Assembly: GCF_004684205.1 (NCBI RefSeq)
Contig: NZ_SRIO01000008.1
Location: forward strand, 1-64,000
DNA from: Candidatus Macondimonas diazotrophica
Lineage (GTDB): Bacteria > Pseudomonadota > Gammaproteobacteria > UBA5335
DNA: 64,000 bases
Direction of reading: 5' to 3'
This document shows positions 3,980-63,172 of the stretch, piece after piece. Each line of letters begins with the position of its first letter. Positions within the stretch are counted from its first letter, which is position 1. Below the pieces are notes generated by a model. The model saw only the letters and a program-made list of their open reading frames with translations, made no database searches and was not told where the DNA came from. The position numbers and the translations under genes were made by a program.

Positions 3980-5296
3980 TCAGCTCACCGATTCTCGAGG
4001 CCTATTTGCCGCATGCCCTTCGTGCCGGTTCACGGGCACGAATCCGGGCAGAAAATTGGGCGTCATACGCGCGCCTATTTCGCGGATATGGCGCTGTCCA
4101 TCAGTGCCATAGAAGAACAACAGCCCGGCGAAACGCAGATCCGGTTCAGCCACGATATCCGTCAGCCGCTGCTCCTCCCAAAGCGCGTCAGCCACGGTCA
4201 GATTGACGATTTGCGTTTGGCCTGGTCCGATCCATTCAACGTCGCTTCGCAACCCCGATGGCGCAACCGGATCGTAGCGGTCGGACTTTCGGTCCTGAAG
4301 CACCGCTGCGTCGACAAAACGTGCATAGCCGGTCACGAACTGGCCGATCCGCACCGGCTCGACCGACCGATTGGTCACTTGCAGCGTCAGATCCATCCGC
4401 CGAGCTGGCAGGTCGAAAAGTGCTCTTTCGACCTTGACGTCGACTTGCTGCTCAGACTCGGGCAGCGGGATCACCGGTGCCTCCACCTTCCCGGTCTGCA
4501 ACGGAATCGTGATCTCATAGCGGTTGAATGACCACATCATCATGCCCAGCGTCATCCCGAGAATCGCCATCACGAAGGCCGTGCTGACTACGATGTCCTT
4601 GATGCTGATGAGCCGTCGCTCGGCTTCATGTTCACCAAACCGCTGAACGGTCACATAGCGCCGCATGATCACGGGTAAGCGCCGGAACCAATAGCCGACC
4701 CACAGCAGTCCCACAACGACCCAAAGCAGGTGAATCGACCACATAGAGGCCAGGCCATACCGCTCGACATCGACGGTCTCGCCATCCATCAGGGTGACGG
4801 TATTCGTGAAATCGGCCTTATCCCCCGTAATCTGGACGAATCGCGCCGGCCCCGATATCGGACCCGCCTCCCAGATGTTGATCAGCGGGTGAACATGCCA
4901 CTCGCCTGGAACCCGGGCCTTGAGTCTGACTTCATACTCATAGAATTCACCACGCTTGAATGCCGTGGATTGATACTGCGGCATGCCGTTGACCGTGGCG
5001 TCCAAACGAATGAATACCGGACCCGGAACGCCGACATTCAGAAAGACCCATTCCTCGGGTTTAGCCACATAATCCGGCCAATGCCCCGATACCATGAACT
5101 TGCCACGGACCGTGACGATGTCGTTGACCTTGACTTGGGTGGGCTCGATCTGCGTATCGAACCAATGAATCGTCCGCATGCGGATTCCGGCCATCTGAGC
5201 GATCTCGCCGTGTCCGAATGCAACCGGCGGGACGAACGACCACATCAGTAGCATGAGGATGATCGGACGCAGGAAAATCTGACTGGTATGCTTCAT
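3980..5296 (-). CDS. pmoB: Copper membrane monooxygenase subunit B (PmoB/AmoB family)
   Basis: The 438-residue product is the beta subunit of a particulate methane/ammonia/hydrocarbon monooxygenase. After a signal peptide, the mature N-terminus is His28 in the HGE motif. With His133 and His135 (WHVHP) it supplies all three ligands of the CuB site. The conserved RMRTIHWFD block follows. Two membrane helices lie at about residues 186-204 and 234-256, flanked by periplasmic cupredoxin-like domains; PmoB is usually near 410-420 residues. It is the last gene of the CAB operon, 21 bases after pmoA, with AAGGAGG before the ATG. The substrate cannot be read from the sequence; a short-chain hydrocarbon is more likely than ammonia given the acyl-CoA synthetase next door. 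Confidence 0.93.
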   Translation of the reverse strand: MKHTSQIFLRPIILMLLMWSFVPPVAFGHGEIAQMAGIRMRTIHWFDTQIEPTQVKVNDIVTVRGKFMVSGHWPDYVAKPEEWVFLNVGVPGPVFIRLDATVNGMPQYQSTAFKRGEFYEYEVRLKARVPGEWHVHPLINIWEAGPISGPARFVQITGDKADFTNTVTLMDGETVDVERYGLASMWSIHLLWVVVGLLWVGYWFRRLPVIMRRYVTVQRFGEHEAERRLISIKDIVVSTAFVMAILGMTLGMMMWSFNRYEITIPLQTGKVEAPVIPLPESEQQVDVKVERALFDLPARRMDLTLQVTNRSVEPVRIGQFVTGYARFVDAAVLQDRKSDRYDPVAPSGLRSDVEWIGPGQTQIVNLTVADALWEEQRLTDIVAEPDLRFAGLLFFYGTDGQRHIREIGARMTPNFLPGFVPVNRHEGHAANRPRESVS

Positions 5297-5317
5297 GATT
5301 TGCCTCCTTTTCCCGCC

Positions 5318-6106
5318 TCAAACCAGCTTGCCGAGCCAGGATGGCCGGGCACCCTTGGAGCCGATCCATACGAACAGGTAATAGACCAGGATGGCAAAGA
5401 AGCCCGAAACGAAAGCACTCACCGGTGCAACATGGGTCCCAAAGGTGCGCAAGGTACCGGCTTCGATGATGCGCACGTATTCCGGCATCGCTGTCCGGAT
5501 ATACTGGAAGCCCATGTAATCGGCCAGCGTCATCACGTTATCGCCCAACTGCACGGGCATATGCATGGGCGCCACGACCGGCCAGTTCATGGCGGAGAAG
5601 AGCAAACCGAACAGAAACCCGCCAACCAGCCCAGTCACTGCAAAGCTTCGAGTGATGAGCAGGACCGCGTCCAGCACGACCGCCGCACCGATCCAGACCT
5701 CCGGCATGACCCAGTTCATGGGGAAAGCCGTAAAGACATGGAAATTGACATAGCGGCTGATGATCTGGGAAAGCCAGAAACCTAAAGCCAGGCCAGTTGC
5801 CGCAACCGGTAACTTGAAGTATCGCCAGAAGGCATAGGTCGCAACGGCGGGAAGGGCGAGGAGCAGGAGCGGCGTCAGAAGTGGCCACCAGCGCCGGTCA
5901 CGCCAATCCATCCAGTAGCTCCAATCTCCGACCGTCAATGCACAGAGAAAAACCGCTGCGCCACCGATCAGAACGGATATCAGCGGAAAGAAAAATAAAT
6001 CCGCATTGCGCCAGGCCTGTACCTGATCCTGAACGCTCAGGACCGCGCTCCCGCGTGGGGCACGGGAGGCGTCTGTCTGTTCGCCGGTATCGATTTGAAT
6101 CGCCAT
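5318..6106 (-). CDS. pmoA: Copper membrane monooxygenase subunit A (PmoA/AmoA family)
   Basis: The 262-residue membrane subunit carries family blocks such as GDWSYWMDWRDRRWW, FHVFTAFPMNWVMPEVW and PEYVRIIEAGTLRTFG. Several membrane helices are visible. It forms the alpha3beta3gamma3 monooxygenase with PmoB and PmoC in the inner membrane. The FPMNW segment differs from what I recall for classical methanotroph PmoA and nitrifier AmoA, which suggests a divergent hydrocarbon-type clade; that is a judgement from memory and needs a tree. AAGGAAGGA precedes the ATG. It lies 132 bases after pmoC, and that gap holds a strong hairpin. Confidence 0.93.
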   Translation of the reverse strand: MAIQIDTGEQTDASRAPRGSAVLSVQDQVQAWRNADLFFFPLISVLIGGAAVFLCALTVGDWSYWMDWRDRRWWPLLTPLLLLALPAVATYAFWRYFKLPVAATGLALGFWLSQIISRYVNFHVFTAFPMNWVMPEVWIGAAVVLDAVLLITRSFAVTGLVGGFLFGLLFSAMNWPVVAPMHMPVQLGDNVMTLADYMGFQYIRTAMPEYVRIIEAGTLRTFGTHVAPVSAFVSGFFAILVYYLFVWIGSKGARPSWLGKLV

Positions 6107-6189
6107 CTCATCCTTCCTTGATATGAGGCCAACAATCGGAGCACGGTCCTCATCTCGCCGTCACCAGATCCGTCCAACCAAGCAGACGG

Positions 6190-6223
6190 GGAGCGAATGG
6201 GCGCTCCTTCGACCATTCGCTCC
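6190..6223 (-). promoter_or_regulatory. Perfect 11-bp hairpin between pmoC and pmoA
   Basis: GGAGCGAATGG and CCATTCGCTCC are exact reverse complements separated by 12 bases. There is no T-run, so it looks like an mRNA stabiliser, processing site or partial attenuator rather than a full terminator. It lies in the 132-base pmoC-pmoA gap and may set the ratio of subunit C to subunits A and B. Confidence 0.65.
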
Positions 6224-6238
6224 GGCGAGGTCGCCCGC

Positions 6239-7036
6239 TCAGTCGGTTAGGCCCATTTCCTTTTCCACCTCCTCCAGGCTGTACACCCGACTCAACTCAT
6301 ACATGCGCTGGATGCATTGAATGACGAAGCCAATCAGAAACACCAGAAAGAATCCAGCCAGCACGAAAAACCAATGCACGGGCGCCCCGAACAGTTCCTC
6401 GGCATAGAAAAAGGTGTGCGCCCATTCATTGAAGGCCACCACCGGCCCCGCCATCATGAAGCCGATAATCGCCAACGACAGCGGCATCGAAACGCGGTTG
6501 GCGAAATACGGTAGCCGGGTATGAACCCAGATCCACGCCATCACCAATCCACCCAATCCCGCTGGAATACCCAGATAGAATAGGAAGATATGCGTTGGCG
6601 TGAAGTCGGTATCCCGAATCACCACCTGATGCCAGGCCGCATCCGCTTCGGTCAACAACCCCAAAGCGGAGATGAGAGCAATCGCCGCCACCACGAGAAT
6701 GCTGAACATCGCATAGAAGCGCCGCAGTTCATCGCGCGCCGGCAGATTGAGGATATCCCGATCACGGGTCATCCATAGCCAAAGCGCGCCGATGGCACCC
6801 AGCACCGGCAATCCGATGATTTGGACATAAAAGATCCGCATCCAGTAGGTCTGGAACTCATCGGAAAACGAATCGAGTCCGACGGACCAGGAAAAGGTAT
6901 GCTGATACCACTTCACTAGAGCAATCACCCCAATGGCTATCGCCGTCACGCCAAAGGCCAGCCTCCACGGTGGGCGGGGTGCTTCCGTCGCTGCCTCGGA
7001 TTTCTCCGGTACAGCGGTATTCATCACAGTACTCAT
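6239..7036 (-). CDS. pmoC: Copper membrane monooxygenase subunit C (PmoC/AmoC family), operon copy
   Basis: The 265-residue subunit has the PmoC metal site D-x3-H-x12-H at Asp132, His136 and His149 (DAAWHQVVIRDTDFTPTH), which are the ligands of the CuC/CuD site. Several hydrophobic segments fit the usual multi-helix fold, and FNEWAHTFFYAEELFGAP is a further family block. The ATG at 7036 is chosen for its GAGGAG site eight bases upstream; an in-frame start 39 bases earlier has none. It is the first gene of the operon, about 143 bases after the predicted transcription start. A second pmoC is at 62354-63172. Confidence 0.93.
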   Translation of the reverse strand: MSTVMNTAVPEKSEAATEAPRPPWRLAFGVTAIAIGVIALVKWYQHTFSWSVGLDSFSDEFQTYWMRIFYVQIIGLPVLGAIGALWLWMTRDRDILNLPARDELRRFYAMFSILVVAAIALISALGLLTEADAAWHQVVIRDTDFTPTHIFLFYLGIPAGLGGLVMAWIWVHTRLPYFANRVSMPLSLAIIGFMMAGPVVAFNEWAHTFFYAEELFGAPVHWFFVLAGFFLVFLIGFVIQCIQRMYELSRVYSLEEVEKEMGLTD

Positions 7037-7185: not shown

Positions 7186-7214
7186 TATATACGCCTGATT
7201 GAACGTTCGTTCAA
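7186..7214 (-). promoter_or_regulatory. Sigma70-like promoter of the pmoCAB operon
   Basis: On the minus strand TTGAAC (7214-7209) is separated by exactly 17 bases from TATATA (7191-7186). This is a close match to a -35/-10 pair, with transcription expected to start near 7179. It lies in the gap between the acyl-CoA synthetase stop and pmoC. Confidence 0.7.
7199..7214. promoter_or_regulatory. Palindromic operator overlapping the pmoCAB -35 box
   Basis: TTGAACGTTCGTTCAA is a perfect 7+2+7 palindrome that covers the -35 hexamer and the start of the spacer. A symmetric GAACG/CGTTC site in this position resembles operators of TetR-family repressors, suggesting repression relieved by a substrate or acyl-CoA signal. 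No regulator gene lies next to the operon, so the partner must be elsewhere. Confidence 0.65.
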
Positions 7215-7256: not shown

Positions 7257-8807
7257 TCAAATCTTGCGTTCCCGACCTTCCCAATACGGATCGCGCAGAA
7301 AGCGCTTGTACAGCTTGCCGGTATCGAGGCGCGGCAATTCGACGGCAAAATCGATCGAACGGGGCAATTTGAACCGGGCTAGGCGCTCGGACGCGAAAGC
7401 CATCAGTTCTTCAGCCAGTTCGGGGCCTGGTGCAATGCCGTCCGCAGGCTGGATGACTGCCTTGATCTCTTCCCCCCACTCCTCGTTGGGAATCCCAAAC
7501 ACGGCGGCATCGGCCACTTTGGGGTGTTCCATCAACGCTTTTTCGATCTCCGCCGGGTAGATGTTGACGCCTCCCGAGATAATCAGATCTTTGGCGCGAT
7601 CGCACAGAAACAGCCATCCATCGTCATCGACATACCCGATGTCTCCCACGGTAAACAGGCCATCCCGATGGCTTTCCCGGGTCTTGGCCGGATCTTTGTA
7701 ATACTCGAACTCCCCAACCATCGATTTCATGTAGACATTCCCGGGCTCGCCTGCAGGCAAGGTATTTCCGGCGTCGTCGAAGATACGGATTTCCGTCCCA
7801 GGCCAAGGCCGGCCCACCGTGCCTGGTTTTTTCAGCCAGTCCTCGGAAGTCGCGATCGTCCCCCCGCCTTCGGTCGCGCCGTAATACTCATAGATCACCG
7901 GTCCCCACCATTCGATGAGCGCCTTTTTCGCCTCCACACCGATCGGCGCTGCACCATGGATGACGGCCCGCAGGCTGGACACGTCATATCGCTGTTTGAC
8001 CGTATCGGGCAGTGCCAGCAGCCGATGAAACATAGTGGGAACCATATGGGTTGAAGTGATCCGGTGCGCTTCGATCAGGCGCAATGTCTCCTCAGCATCC
8101 CACTTGTCCATCAAGACCAGGGTGTGCCCCATATGAAGAGAAGCCGAGCCGAAACCGCCCGGAGCGGCGTGATAGAGCGGGCCCGTAACTAGATGCACCC
8201 CGTCGCCCGCACTGAGCTGAAAAAGCGCGCCCAGCATTCCCGCCATGCTGGCCACGACGTCGGGATTGCCGGGCATCAGGGGGCGCCGAACGCCCTTTGG
8301 CCGGCCGGTGGTGCCAGAGGTATAGAGCATCAACGTGCCGGCTTGGCGCTCGGCCGGCGGGGTTACAGGCTGTTCGGCCAAAAAAGCGTCATAACTGCGA
8401 AATCCCGGGATGTTGCCCACGGCAAAGCAGCGCGAGCGGTCATAGTTCAACGCTTCCACTGCCCTGATGGCCGCTGCCGCATGGCGCTCATGGGCGATAA
8501 AGGCCTTGGCCTCGCAATTCTCAATGATGTAGGCGACTTCGGGTCCGGTCAGGTGATAGTTGATCGGCGTCAGGTAAAGACCCGCCTGATGCGTCGCCAA
8601 GAAGATCTCGATCCAGGCAGGATCGTTATGCATCAACATGGCGATCCCATCCCGATATTGCAGTCCCAGCGACCGCAGGCCGTTGGAAAGCCGATTGCCG
8701 CGTTCATCAAGTTCTCCAAAACGCATGGATTGCCCGGCCGCATCGATCAGCGCAATCCTCGTCGGGTCGTTCTTCGCCTGTGCCCAAAATCCAGTCTTGA
8801 CAGCCAT
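7257..8807 (-). CDS. Acyl-CoA synthetase, AMP-binding family
   Basis: The 516-residue adenylate-forming enzyme activates a carboxylic acid to its acyl-CoA with ATP. MLYTSGTTGRPKGV is the phosphate-binding A3 motif, YYGATEGGG the A5 motif, GDIGYVDDDGWLFLCDRAKD covers A7-A8, and the C-terminal catalytic lysine lies in LDTGKLYKR. The ATG at 8807 has GGGAGGA close upstream; the frame extends 19 codons further without a site. It is FadD-like, but the chain length is not evident. It precedes pmoCAB on the same strand, though an independent promoter sits in between. The pairing fits oxidation of an alkane to an acid followed by CoA activation. Confidence 0.88.
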   Translation of the reverse strand: MAVKTGFWAQAKNDPTRIALIDAAGQSMRFGELDERGNRLSNGLRSLGLQYRDGIAMLMHNDPAWIEIFLATHQAGLYLTPINYHLTGPEVAYIIENCEAKAFIAHERHAAAAIRAVEALNYDRSRCFAVGNIPGFRSYDAFLAEQPVTPPAERQAGTLMLYTSGTTGRPKGVRRPLMPGNPDVVASMAGMLGALFQLSAGDGVHLVTGPLYHAAPGGFGSASLHMGHTLVLMDKWDAEETLRLIEAHRITSTHMVPTMFHRLLALPDTVKQRYDVSSLRAVIHGAAPIGVEAKKALIEWWGPVIYEYYGATEGGGTIATSEDWLKKPGTVGRPWPGTEIRIFDDAGNTLPAGEPGNVYMKSMVGEFEYYKDPAKTRESHRDGLFTVGDIGYVDDDGWLFLCDRAKDLIISGGVNIYPAEIEKALMEHPKVADAAVFGIPNEEWGEEIKAVIQPADGIAPGPELAEELMAFASERLARFKLPRSIDFAVELPRLDTGKLYKRFLRDPYWEGRERKI

Positions 8808-8874
8808 GGCATCCTCCCAGGTTTGGCGTCCTTGAGCCGAGCGCCAACTCGGCATCATTGACATATAGTCCGAG

Positions 8875-10266: not shown

Positions 10267-10367
10267 CTCTGCCTTCTCGAAAACATTCAGCACCCGACGT
10301 TCAGCGCATCGCGCCGACCTCTCGGAACTATTCCACCGCCGACGATCGGCCGCTATACTCCGGATCA

Positions 10368-10437
10368 TTCCGAGGAGCGCTGCAAGGCTCGGCTGCAACG
10401 GCCCTGCCCCAGGCTCGGAAGCGGTTCAACGGCGCTC
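10368..10437 (+). promoter_or_regulatory. SAH riboswitch upstream of ahcY
   Basis: TTCCGAG (10368-10374) pairs with CTCGGAA (10414-10420) to make P1. The conserved GAGGAGCGCTGCAA core follows the 5-prime strand, and CCCAGG precedes the 3-prime strand. GAGCGC in the core then pairs with GGCGCTC at 10431-10437 to form the pseudoknot helix typical of this class. The order and core bases match the known S-adenosylhomocysteine riboswitch, which raises expression of SAH-recycling genes when SAH accumulates. It ends about 90 bases before the ahcY start. Confidence 0.9.
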
Positions 10438-10527
10438 TCCGACATCCAACCCGCTGGCGGGGTCTCATACGGATGACGGCGAGCACCTCGCCTTGCCCGT
10501 CTCGCCAGCCAATGCATGGAGACACCC

Positions 10528-31762: not shown

Positions 31763-31951
31763 GACGCCTCCTGCGGTGTTCGAGGGCTGCCCAGGGTACC
31801 CTTGAGCCTAAATGCAAACCCAGGGCCGAACCGAATGGCGCCCTTGTGCATGTCCGCTTCATCGCGGAAAGCCTTCCAGCTCCATCGTTCTGCCCACTTG
31901 AACCGCTGGTTCAAGGTCACGGTCGGCCACGGCACAGGCGGGAGGCGTCTT
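31763..31951 (+). ncRNA. ssrS: 6S RNA
   Basis: The segment lies between zapA and the 5-formyl-THF cyclo-ligase gene, the conserved location of 6S RNA. GACGCCTCC (31763-31771) pairs with GGAGGCGTC (31941-31949) to close the molecule. Inside are CTGCGGTGTTCG on the 5-prime arm and CTTGAACC-GCT-GGTTCAAGG on the 3-prime arm, both recognisable in the E. coli molecule. The length of about 187 bases is right. 6S RNA binds sigma70 RNA polymerase and mimics an open promoter. Confidence 0.93.
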
Positions 31952-62353: not shown

Positions 62354-63172
62354 TCAGGTTGTGGCGCTTTTCGCCTCGATCGTGGTCAGCTCGCGGATAC
62401 GCTGTAGGATCTGGACCATGAAACCGCCGATCCCGAACAGCCCCCAGCCCAGCACCACGAAGCCCCAGTGAATCGGTGCCGCGAACAGTTCTTCTGCGTA
62501 GAAGAAGGTGTGACCCCACTCATTCAACCCGAGGTTGGGCATGATCATGACGGGCGCAGCGACCACCAAGGCGAGGGGAATCGATACCCGGTTGCGGAAA
62601 TACGGCATACGGGTATGGAGCAGGATAAAACCCAGAATCGCACCGACCGCACCCAGAGGAATCGCGAAATAGAACAGTCCGATATGGGTGGGAGTGAAAT
62701 CCGTATCGCGGACCGTCACCTGATGCCAGGCAGCATCGGCTTCCACGTAAACGCCCAAGATCGCGACCAGAATCACGCTGCCAACGGCCATGAACGCGAG
62801 AATGGCATAGTAGATCGACAGTTCACGCTGGGGCGACATCACCGGATTGGCGGGCCGGGTGAACCACAGCAAAGGCACGCCCACCAGACCGATCAGGGTA
62901 ATGATGATGCCTTGGGCATAGAGCAGAGTCATCCAGTAAGTCTGGAAATCCTGTTCGAAGTAATCCAGGCCGACCGAGAATGAAAACGCTTGCTGATACC
63001 AGCGATAGACACCAAACAGCAACGCGGCCAGGCCAACGCCGATCACCGCAGCCATCCACGGCATATGCGGCGGTTGGGATTCGTCCTGAAGCAGCCCCAC
63101 CGCGCTGAGCAAGCGCTGCATGAGCGTCTGCGGCGCAGCCGGCAGTGTTTGGGGTTTGGTCACGGCATTCAT
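62354..63172 (-). CDS. pmoC: Copper membrane monooxygenase subunit C, unlinked second copy
   Basis: The 272-residue protein has the full metal site Asp146, His150 and His163 (DAAWHQVTVRDTDFTPTH) and the LNEWGHTFFYAEELFAAP block. It is clearly similar to the operon PmoC, but its N-terminus and many membrane segments differ. The ATG at 63172 has AGGAG six bases upstream. It lies 55 kb from pmoCAB, alone, with its own terminator. Extra pmoC/amoC copies in methanotrophs and nitrifiers are used under other growth or stress conditions, and the same may apply here. Confidence 0.92.
   Translation of the reverse strand: MNAVTKPQTLPAAPQTLMQRLLSAVGLLQDESQPPHMPWMAAVIGVGLAALLFGVYRWYQQAFSFSVGLDYFEQDFQTYWMTLLYAQGIIITLIGLVGVPLLWFTRPANPVMSPQRELSIYYAILAFMAVGSVILVAILGVYVEADAAWHQVTVRDTDFTPTHIGLFYFAIPLGAVGAILGFILLHTRMPYFRNRVSIPLALVVAAPVMIMPNLGLNEWGHTFFYAEELFAAPIHWGFVVLGWGLFGIGGFMVQILQRIRELTTIEAKSATT

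Follow-up and report, generated by a model that had tools for sequence, protein, structure and literature searches.

What does a copper membrane monooxygenase (CuMMO) oxidise, and with which subunits does it work, when its genome carries more copies of one subunit gene than of the other two? The pmoC–pmoA–pmoB operon of Candidatus Macondimonas diazotrophica raises both questions. It lies intact at 7036–3980, on the minus strand and in the order C–A–B, in a 64,000-nucleotide stretch of contig NZ_SRIO01000008.1 (the window). The original prediction for this DNA proposed a hydrocarbon monooxygenase for short alkanes rather than for methane or ammonia, and our analysis bears out the hydrocarbon type. 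The genome that holds the window (G000; G001–G005 are further genomes of the same family, and L-numbers denote loci) encodes two PmoA (PF02461), two PmoB (PF04744) and six PmoC (PF04896), and its second A–B pair has no linked C. The system is probably a modular alkane monooxygenase, in which AB cores are served by interchangeable C subunits and are tied together by co-regulation through a shared palindrome.

The three window subunits score far above their Pfam cut-offs, which places them as the A, B and C subunits of the CuMMO family, and they match subunits of the particulate methane monooxygenase (pMMO) in the PDB. All nine of the nine CuB, CuC and CuD ligands were found, as had been claimed, at positions that we take to be those of the M. 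capsulatus pMMO. In PmoC these are D145, H149 and H162 for CuC and N216, H220 and H234 for CuD, numbered from 7075, to which the reading frame is open; an ATG with a good ribosome-binding site marks the start at 7036. The intergenic gaps are 132 bp (C–A) and 21 bp (A–B).

Five of the six PmoC genes stand alone: one in the window, three on contig C6 and one on C10. These extra genes and the A–B pair without PmoC, the main oddity of the system, went unmentioned in the original prediction, as did the second pmoC within the window itself. After the C-less pair (AB1, contig C1) come genes for a D-like protein, a multicopper oxidase and a cupredoxin-like protein, and no PmoC (PF04896) match occurs on its 315-kb contig. 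An assembly gap was considered as the reason for the missing C and rejected, as the pair lies inside the contig and the same C-less locus recurs in four other family genomes (G001–G004) and in UBA3067. Three more loci without C (L074, L125 and L142) end at contig ends and are uninformative. AB1 was also considered as a pxm operon, a candidate that we dropped because no C was found after B (order A–B–D). The cupredoxin-like protein of this locus (L008 3566–12321) is rich in histidine and methionine; neither it nor the D-like proteins have a Pfam family match at 1e-5. Ahead of the locus lies a pyrroloquinoline quinone (PQQ)-propeller protein that scores far under the PQQ dehydrogenase cut-off.

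The surplus of C recurs in relatives. There are six PmoC in G002 (one a 27-bit fragment) and six in G004, and PmoC outnumber PmoA by nine to one in G018, ten to two in NORP74, six to two in UBA3067 and nine to three in NORP120; DC_out226 has five (one with a stop) for two PmoA (one a fragment). Less complete genomes hold three (G001), five (G003, two of them fragments) and four (G005, one of them cut). Of 32 named genomes, four are in this C-rich group; among the other 28, C and A are equal in number in 23, and five have one to three extra C, including weak matches. PmoC occurs in 11 of 369 genomes drawn evenly from the class, and among these 11, G000, G001, G004 and G018 are of the C-rich kind; one genome of the draw with hao (G349) has five amoC of nearly equal scores.

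The extra C genes look functional, judging from their ligands, constraint and phylogeny. None of the genome's six PmoC has lost any of the six CuC and CuD ligands; their pairwise identities are 44–80%. For the PmoC tree and ligand count we used 91 of 140 matches, dropping 47 loci and fragments of less than 180 amino acids; the D-H-H-N-H-H set is kept in 89 of these, with one N-to-D change and one sequence cut by a contig end. The change affects the CuD Asn of L082 4668, from the metagenome-assembled genome (MAG) NORP220, the single PmoC of the 91 with an altered copper ligand. The ratio of nonsynonymous to synonymous substitution rates (dN/dS) is 0.04–0.14 for eight PmoC pairs and 0.01–0.06 for six PmoA or PmoB pairs, values that are rough as dS is about 1 or more in every pair. 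A close orthologue served for comparison with four of the five stand-alone C; the fifth (C6, L043 11778) was paired with one that is 69% identical, giving 0.14. In the PmoC tree, in which bootstrap support has not fully settled, the PmoC of C-rich genomes and L082 form a single clade (67 rows, 100/99). Several stand-alone pmoC have orthologues across genera, the C10 group being present in six of six family genomes, and several group with operon-linked C of NORP74, NORP120 and G018 (89/97). On contig C6, two stand-alone pmoC in divergent orientation (L043 9872–12587) enclose a small methyltransferase-like open reading frame (ORF) and adjoin genes for a long-chain acyl-CoA synthetase and two acyl-CoA dehydrogenases.

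Upstream of the window operon we found a perfect palindrome, TTGAACGNNCGTTCAA, a likely operator. It was first spotted by eye in CuMMO upstream stretches, so its sites in the window and on C10 and C6 are not independent tests; those at AlkB-type, dehydrogenase and ligase genes and in relatives are. With two mismatches allowed, the whole genome has 13 sites, compared with seven for the reversed pattern. The window operon, the C10 pmoC and one AlkB-type gene each have a site with no or one mismatch; those with two lie at AB1, one C6 pmoC, a second AlkB-type gene and seven other places, most of them within genes. Seven 400-bp CuMMO upstream stretches hold 4 of the 13 sites (0.013 expected) or, with the window operon left out, 3 of 12 (0.010 expected). 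When no more than one mismatch is allowed, G001–G005 contain 12 sites; the reversed pattern has none there. Across the six family genomes, all 15 sites at this stringency are upstream of pmoC (11), AlkB-type genes (2), an aldehyde dehydrogenase gene (1) or an AMP-binding acyl-CoA ligase gene (1), the last two in G004. Among the three AlkB-type genes, one has a PDB match (E = 1.2e-39) and two match Pfam FA_desaturase, with no NCBIfam match for these two; the third, like the G004 dehydrogenase and ligase, is named from sequence reading only. AB1 has a 12-of-14 site 307–355 bp upstream in G000–G003 and weaker ones in G004; the AB1 of UBA3067 has none upstream. Of two order-level relatives that lack PmoA, one has no site and the other a single site, within a gene. 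A sigma-54 promoter sought upstream of the CuMMO genes matched at best 7–8 of 11 fixed positions, with no pattern.

Alkane hydroxylase genes are brought together in this putative regulon with genes for the activation of aldehydes and fatty acids, so hydroxylation of alkanes is the most likely activity of the CuMMO; its tree position (below) points the same way. The window enzyme would convert alkanes to alcohols as the first step of a path through aldehyde and acyl-CoA to β-oxidation. Of the two AB cores in the genome, that of the window (CAB) would bring its own C, whereas AB1 (AB with the D-like gene) would take C in trans from stand-alone genes. Supply in trans is the simplest reading: AB1 persists although no C is linked to it, while the genome conserves several C genes, and two of these have the same palindrome. 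Through TTGAACGNNCGTTCAA, a regulator, perhaps of the TetR family, would jointly control AB1, the window operon, the AlkB-type hydroxylases and the two stand-alone C genes (of five) that have a site. Since the CuC and CuD sites lie in PmoC, exchange of C could alter which substrates the enzyme accepts, or the conditions under which it works, with no need for another operon. We tentatively extend this to a combinatorial CuMMO, in which C-less AB and CAB cores might recruit from a pool of stand-alone C (five in this genome and more in relatives) that tunes substrate or conditions, under an operator held in common with AlkB-type genes.

Several observations weigh against the modular alkane monooxygenase. 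No site of at least 12 matching positions lies upstream of the window stand-alone pmoC or two of the three C6 pmoC, nor upstream of PmoC in C-rich genomes outside the family. The link of AB1 to a particular stand-alone C group hangs on the single 89/97 branch, the AlkB of the same regulon could alone deal with alkanes, and the window PmoB passes the NCBIfam AmoB_BACT cut-off (451 versus 336 bits).

That different C would confer different activities goes one step beyond their interchange, and condition-specific isoforms are nearly as likely. The extra C may thus assemble with AB as stress or condition isoforms of one reaction, with the substrate unchanged, as discussed for AmoC. We regard this as a serious contender, although not the likeliest. 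The part of the literature available to us implicates stand-alone amoC of ammonia-oxidizing bacteria in the stress response and describes several ammonia-oxidizing archaea with many amoC (PMC10030591); moreover, the palindrome marks only part of the C genes, as expected if the others follow other signals. Isoforms of one reaction fit less well with paralogues as divergent as those described above, which have orthologues across genera and differ more than the nearly equal-scoring amoC of G349.

It is unlikely, but a more credible rival than those that follow, that a general fatty-acid regulator binds the palindrome, which would then have little bearing on the substrate of the CuMMO, conceivably an alkene or a different small hydrophobic compound. 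The aldehyde dehydrogenase and acyl-CoA ligase sites of G004 would suit such a regulator, and, according to the accessible text of PMC4036023, ethylene supports the growth of Haliea strains that have related enzymes. In G000, however, every perfect or one-mismatch site belongs to a monooxygenase gene, pmoC in two cases and an AlkB-type gene in the third.

We consider it improbable that the stand-alone C no longer act with AB and are independent membrane copper proteins or remnants. Their neighbourhoods are varied, and we found no common partner gene, with few recurring neighbour clusters (acyl-CoA dehydrogenases at four loci each, and synteny within the genus). Against both readings, the stand-alone C retain every CuC and CuD ligand, dN/dS is low in the four tested, two of the genes have the palindrome of both AB operons, and several group with operon-linked C.

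The type of the window enzyme was examined through PmoA. In a scan of named genomes from which the best 80 PmoA loci were kept, the closest are those of the uncultured gammaproteobacterial MAGs Gammapro13 (92% identity), Gammapro7 (89%) and KhS_metabat.21 (80%). Next, at 48–55%, come second copies of the same group with NORP74, UBA3067, NORP120 and DC_out226, and after those, at 46–51%, Comamonadaceae and Nevskiaceae. In a 60-row tree, from which 32 loci (mostly near-identical Methylococcales) had been dropped, the window PmoA falls inside a 40-row clade (100/99), apart from methanotroph, A–B–C-ordered plasmid, actinobacterial and Cycloclasticus copies. A 52-row tree adds PmoA of five further genomes, two of them (G172 and G349) with hao; there the window PmoA belongs to a 32-row hydrocarbon-type clade (100/99) that excludes both the methanotrophs and the hao-positive genomes, and within which these MAG lineages form a 19-row group (99/95). 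The hydrocarbon-type clade also takes in Solimonas, Polaromonas and uncultured MAGs; group X and Haliea are not among the rows of these trees. The actinobacterial copies (L061 and L062) form their own branch. Nor is the window PmoA near the A–B–C copy of Methylomagnum, which we take to be pxm from its gene order; a pxm identity for the window operon was rejected on its C–A–B order and on this distance from the presumed pxmA. A PmoA tree and a genome search for hao had been named as checks in the original prediction, and both agree with it: the phylogeny supports a hydrocarbon-type CuMMO of Gammaproteobacteria, and hao (PF13447) was not found in G000 or ten C-rich relatives (0/11), although it was found in both nitrifier-type genomes (G172 and G349, the positive controls).

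A methane monooxygenase of a methanotroph is very unlikely. The CuMMO fold and ligands would be compatible with one, as would the methanol/ethanol-family PQQ alcohol dehydrogenase that contig C1 encodes; the original prediction had noted no methanol dehydrogenase in view, a remark that this gene qualifies for the genome as a whole. However, the PmoA lies outside the methanotroph clade, fae (TIGR03126) is absent from all 11 C-rich genomes and present in three of three methanotroph-type genomes, and the operator is shared with AlkB-type genes. The dehydrogenase, moreover, has a fused cytochrome c domain, presumably the build of quinohaemoprotein alcohol dehydrogenases and not of MxaF or XoxF. 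Despite the score of its B subunit, an ammonia monooxygenase can practically be dismissed, given A and C subunits below the NCBIfam Amo equivalog cut-offs, the lack of a PF13447 match in these 11 genomes and the PmoA tree. Automatic annotation would nevertheless name the PmoB an ammonia monooxygenase in a genome in which hao was not found; the name is not to be trusted, because A and C do not reach the Amo cut-offs.

The FPMNW segment of PmoA (residues 128–132), which had been called atypical, is indeed uncommon but argues little for a substrate. A simple motif search located the segment in 77 of 92 PmoA, as FPVNF in 40, FPMNF in nine and FPMNW in five; all five come from window-type copies in the family of G000, which makes FPMNW a clade marker of minor weight.

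Genomes that combine many C with few A and B are already known among ammonia oxidizers; here the pattern occurs with a hydrocarbon-type enzyme and a C-less AB. In Nitrososphaeraceae with multiple amoC and in ammonia-oxidizing bacteria with stand-alone amoC, C also outnumber A and B and are scattered in the genome, as far as the available portion of PMC10030591 describes; those systems oxidize ammonia, whereas here a bacterial hydrocarbon-type enzyme includes an AB pair to which no C is linked, and the number of C reaches ten in one genome. In the open-access literature we found no report of C-less AB operons together with an expanded C set in hydrocarbon-type CuMMOs, and the accessible parts of four papers on gaseous-alkane oxidizers contain nothing on extra C genes (PMC9213486, PMC11409719, PMC9999580 and PMC4036023).

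Other known systems resemble the window operon in part. Gammaproteobacterial hydrocarbon-type operons (Solimonas, Polycyclovorans, Sinimarinibacterium, Polaromonas and Hydrogenophaga) share its PmoA clade (100/99) and CAB order, but their PmoA are 46–51% identical to that of the window, their C and A are equal in number and, in those checked, no palindrome of at least 12 matching positions lies upstream of pmoC. The particulate hydrocarbon monooxygenase (pHMO) of Cycloclasticus, reported in the accessible text of PMC12510462 for short alkanes and in several copies per genome, is likewise a CuMMO of a marine gammaproteobacterium with divergent copies; its PmoA, however, is on the other side of the tree, and its C and A mostly occur together. 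Actinobacterial Hmo (Mycolicibacterium chubuense NBB4 and Rhodococcus sp. WAY2) has the CAB order and an AMP-binding gene nearby, but only 36–39% PmoA identity, a long separate branch and an adjoining gene for an N,N-dimethyl-4-nitrosoaniline (NDMA)-dependent methanol dehydrogenase. AlkB alkane 1-monooxygenases are unrelated di-iron enzymes that act at the same pathway step, and here AlkB-type genes carry the palindrome. In Rhodococcus, alkB is under a TetR-type repressor, AlkU, and the inverted repeats given in the accessible part of PMC6921075 differ in sequence from the palindrome here.

The location of the CuMMO active site is disputed, and recent work points to PmoC, according to the available text of PMC10030591. 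In the genomes described here AB has been kept while C multiplied, with the ligands all intact. If one AB indeed works with several C, product differences would map straight to PmoC and provide a natural test of the active-site question; pmoA surveys would undercount the functional variety of CuMMOs, and the lack of C in an AB operon would not have to mean that it is defective. For the regulation of alkane CuMMOs, the palindrome provides a starting point at the sequence level.

Table 1. Coordinates of the CuMMO genes, the palindrome and associated genes (window positions unless a locus is given).
Feature	Position	Strand	Evidence or remark
pmoC of the operon	6239–7036	-	PF04896, 212.6 bits; CuC and CuD ligands all kept
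pmoA, hydrocarbon-type, with FPMNW segment	5318–6106	-	PF02461, 245 bits; trees
pmoB	3980–5296	-	PF04744, 390 bits; CuB ligands H29, H134, H136
Perfect palindrome TTGAACGNNCGTTCAA, likely operator	7199–7214	.	In 220-bp gap before pmoC
Acyl-CoA synthetase (AMP-binding)	7257–8864	-	Profile matches; syntenic with pmoCAB in G001, G002 and G003
Stand-alone pmoC	62354–63172	-	Six copper ligands kept; no adjoining A or B; no palindrome upstream
AlkB-type gene, palindrome upstream	L226 5313–6566		Contig C2
AlkB-type gene, palindrome upstream	L230 2354–3613		Contig C21; aldehyde dehydrogenase gene adjoining

The surroundings of the operon are as first described, with polysaccharide, acyl-CoA synthetase and methyl-cycle genes: a sugar transferase, GalE, the acyl-CoA synthetase and metK, ahcY and metF, the last three named by eye from ORFs. 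The acyl-CoA synthetase gene ends 220 bp upstream of the pmoC start on the same strand, a position kept in three genomes of the same genus. In the methyl-cycle cluster, a SAH (S-adenosylhomocysteine) riboswitch (RF01057, 58.6 bits; 10366–10444, plus strand) precedes the ahcY-like ORF, and a 6S RNA gene (RF00013, 84.1 bits) lies further along the window at 31765–31948 on the plus strand.

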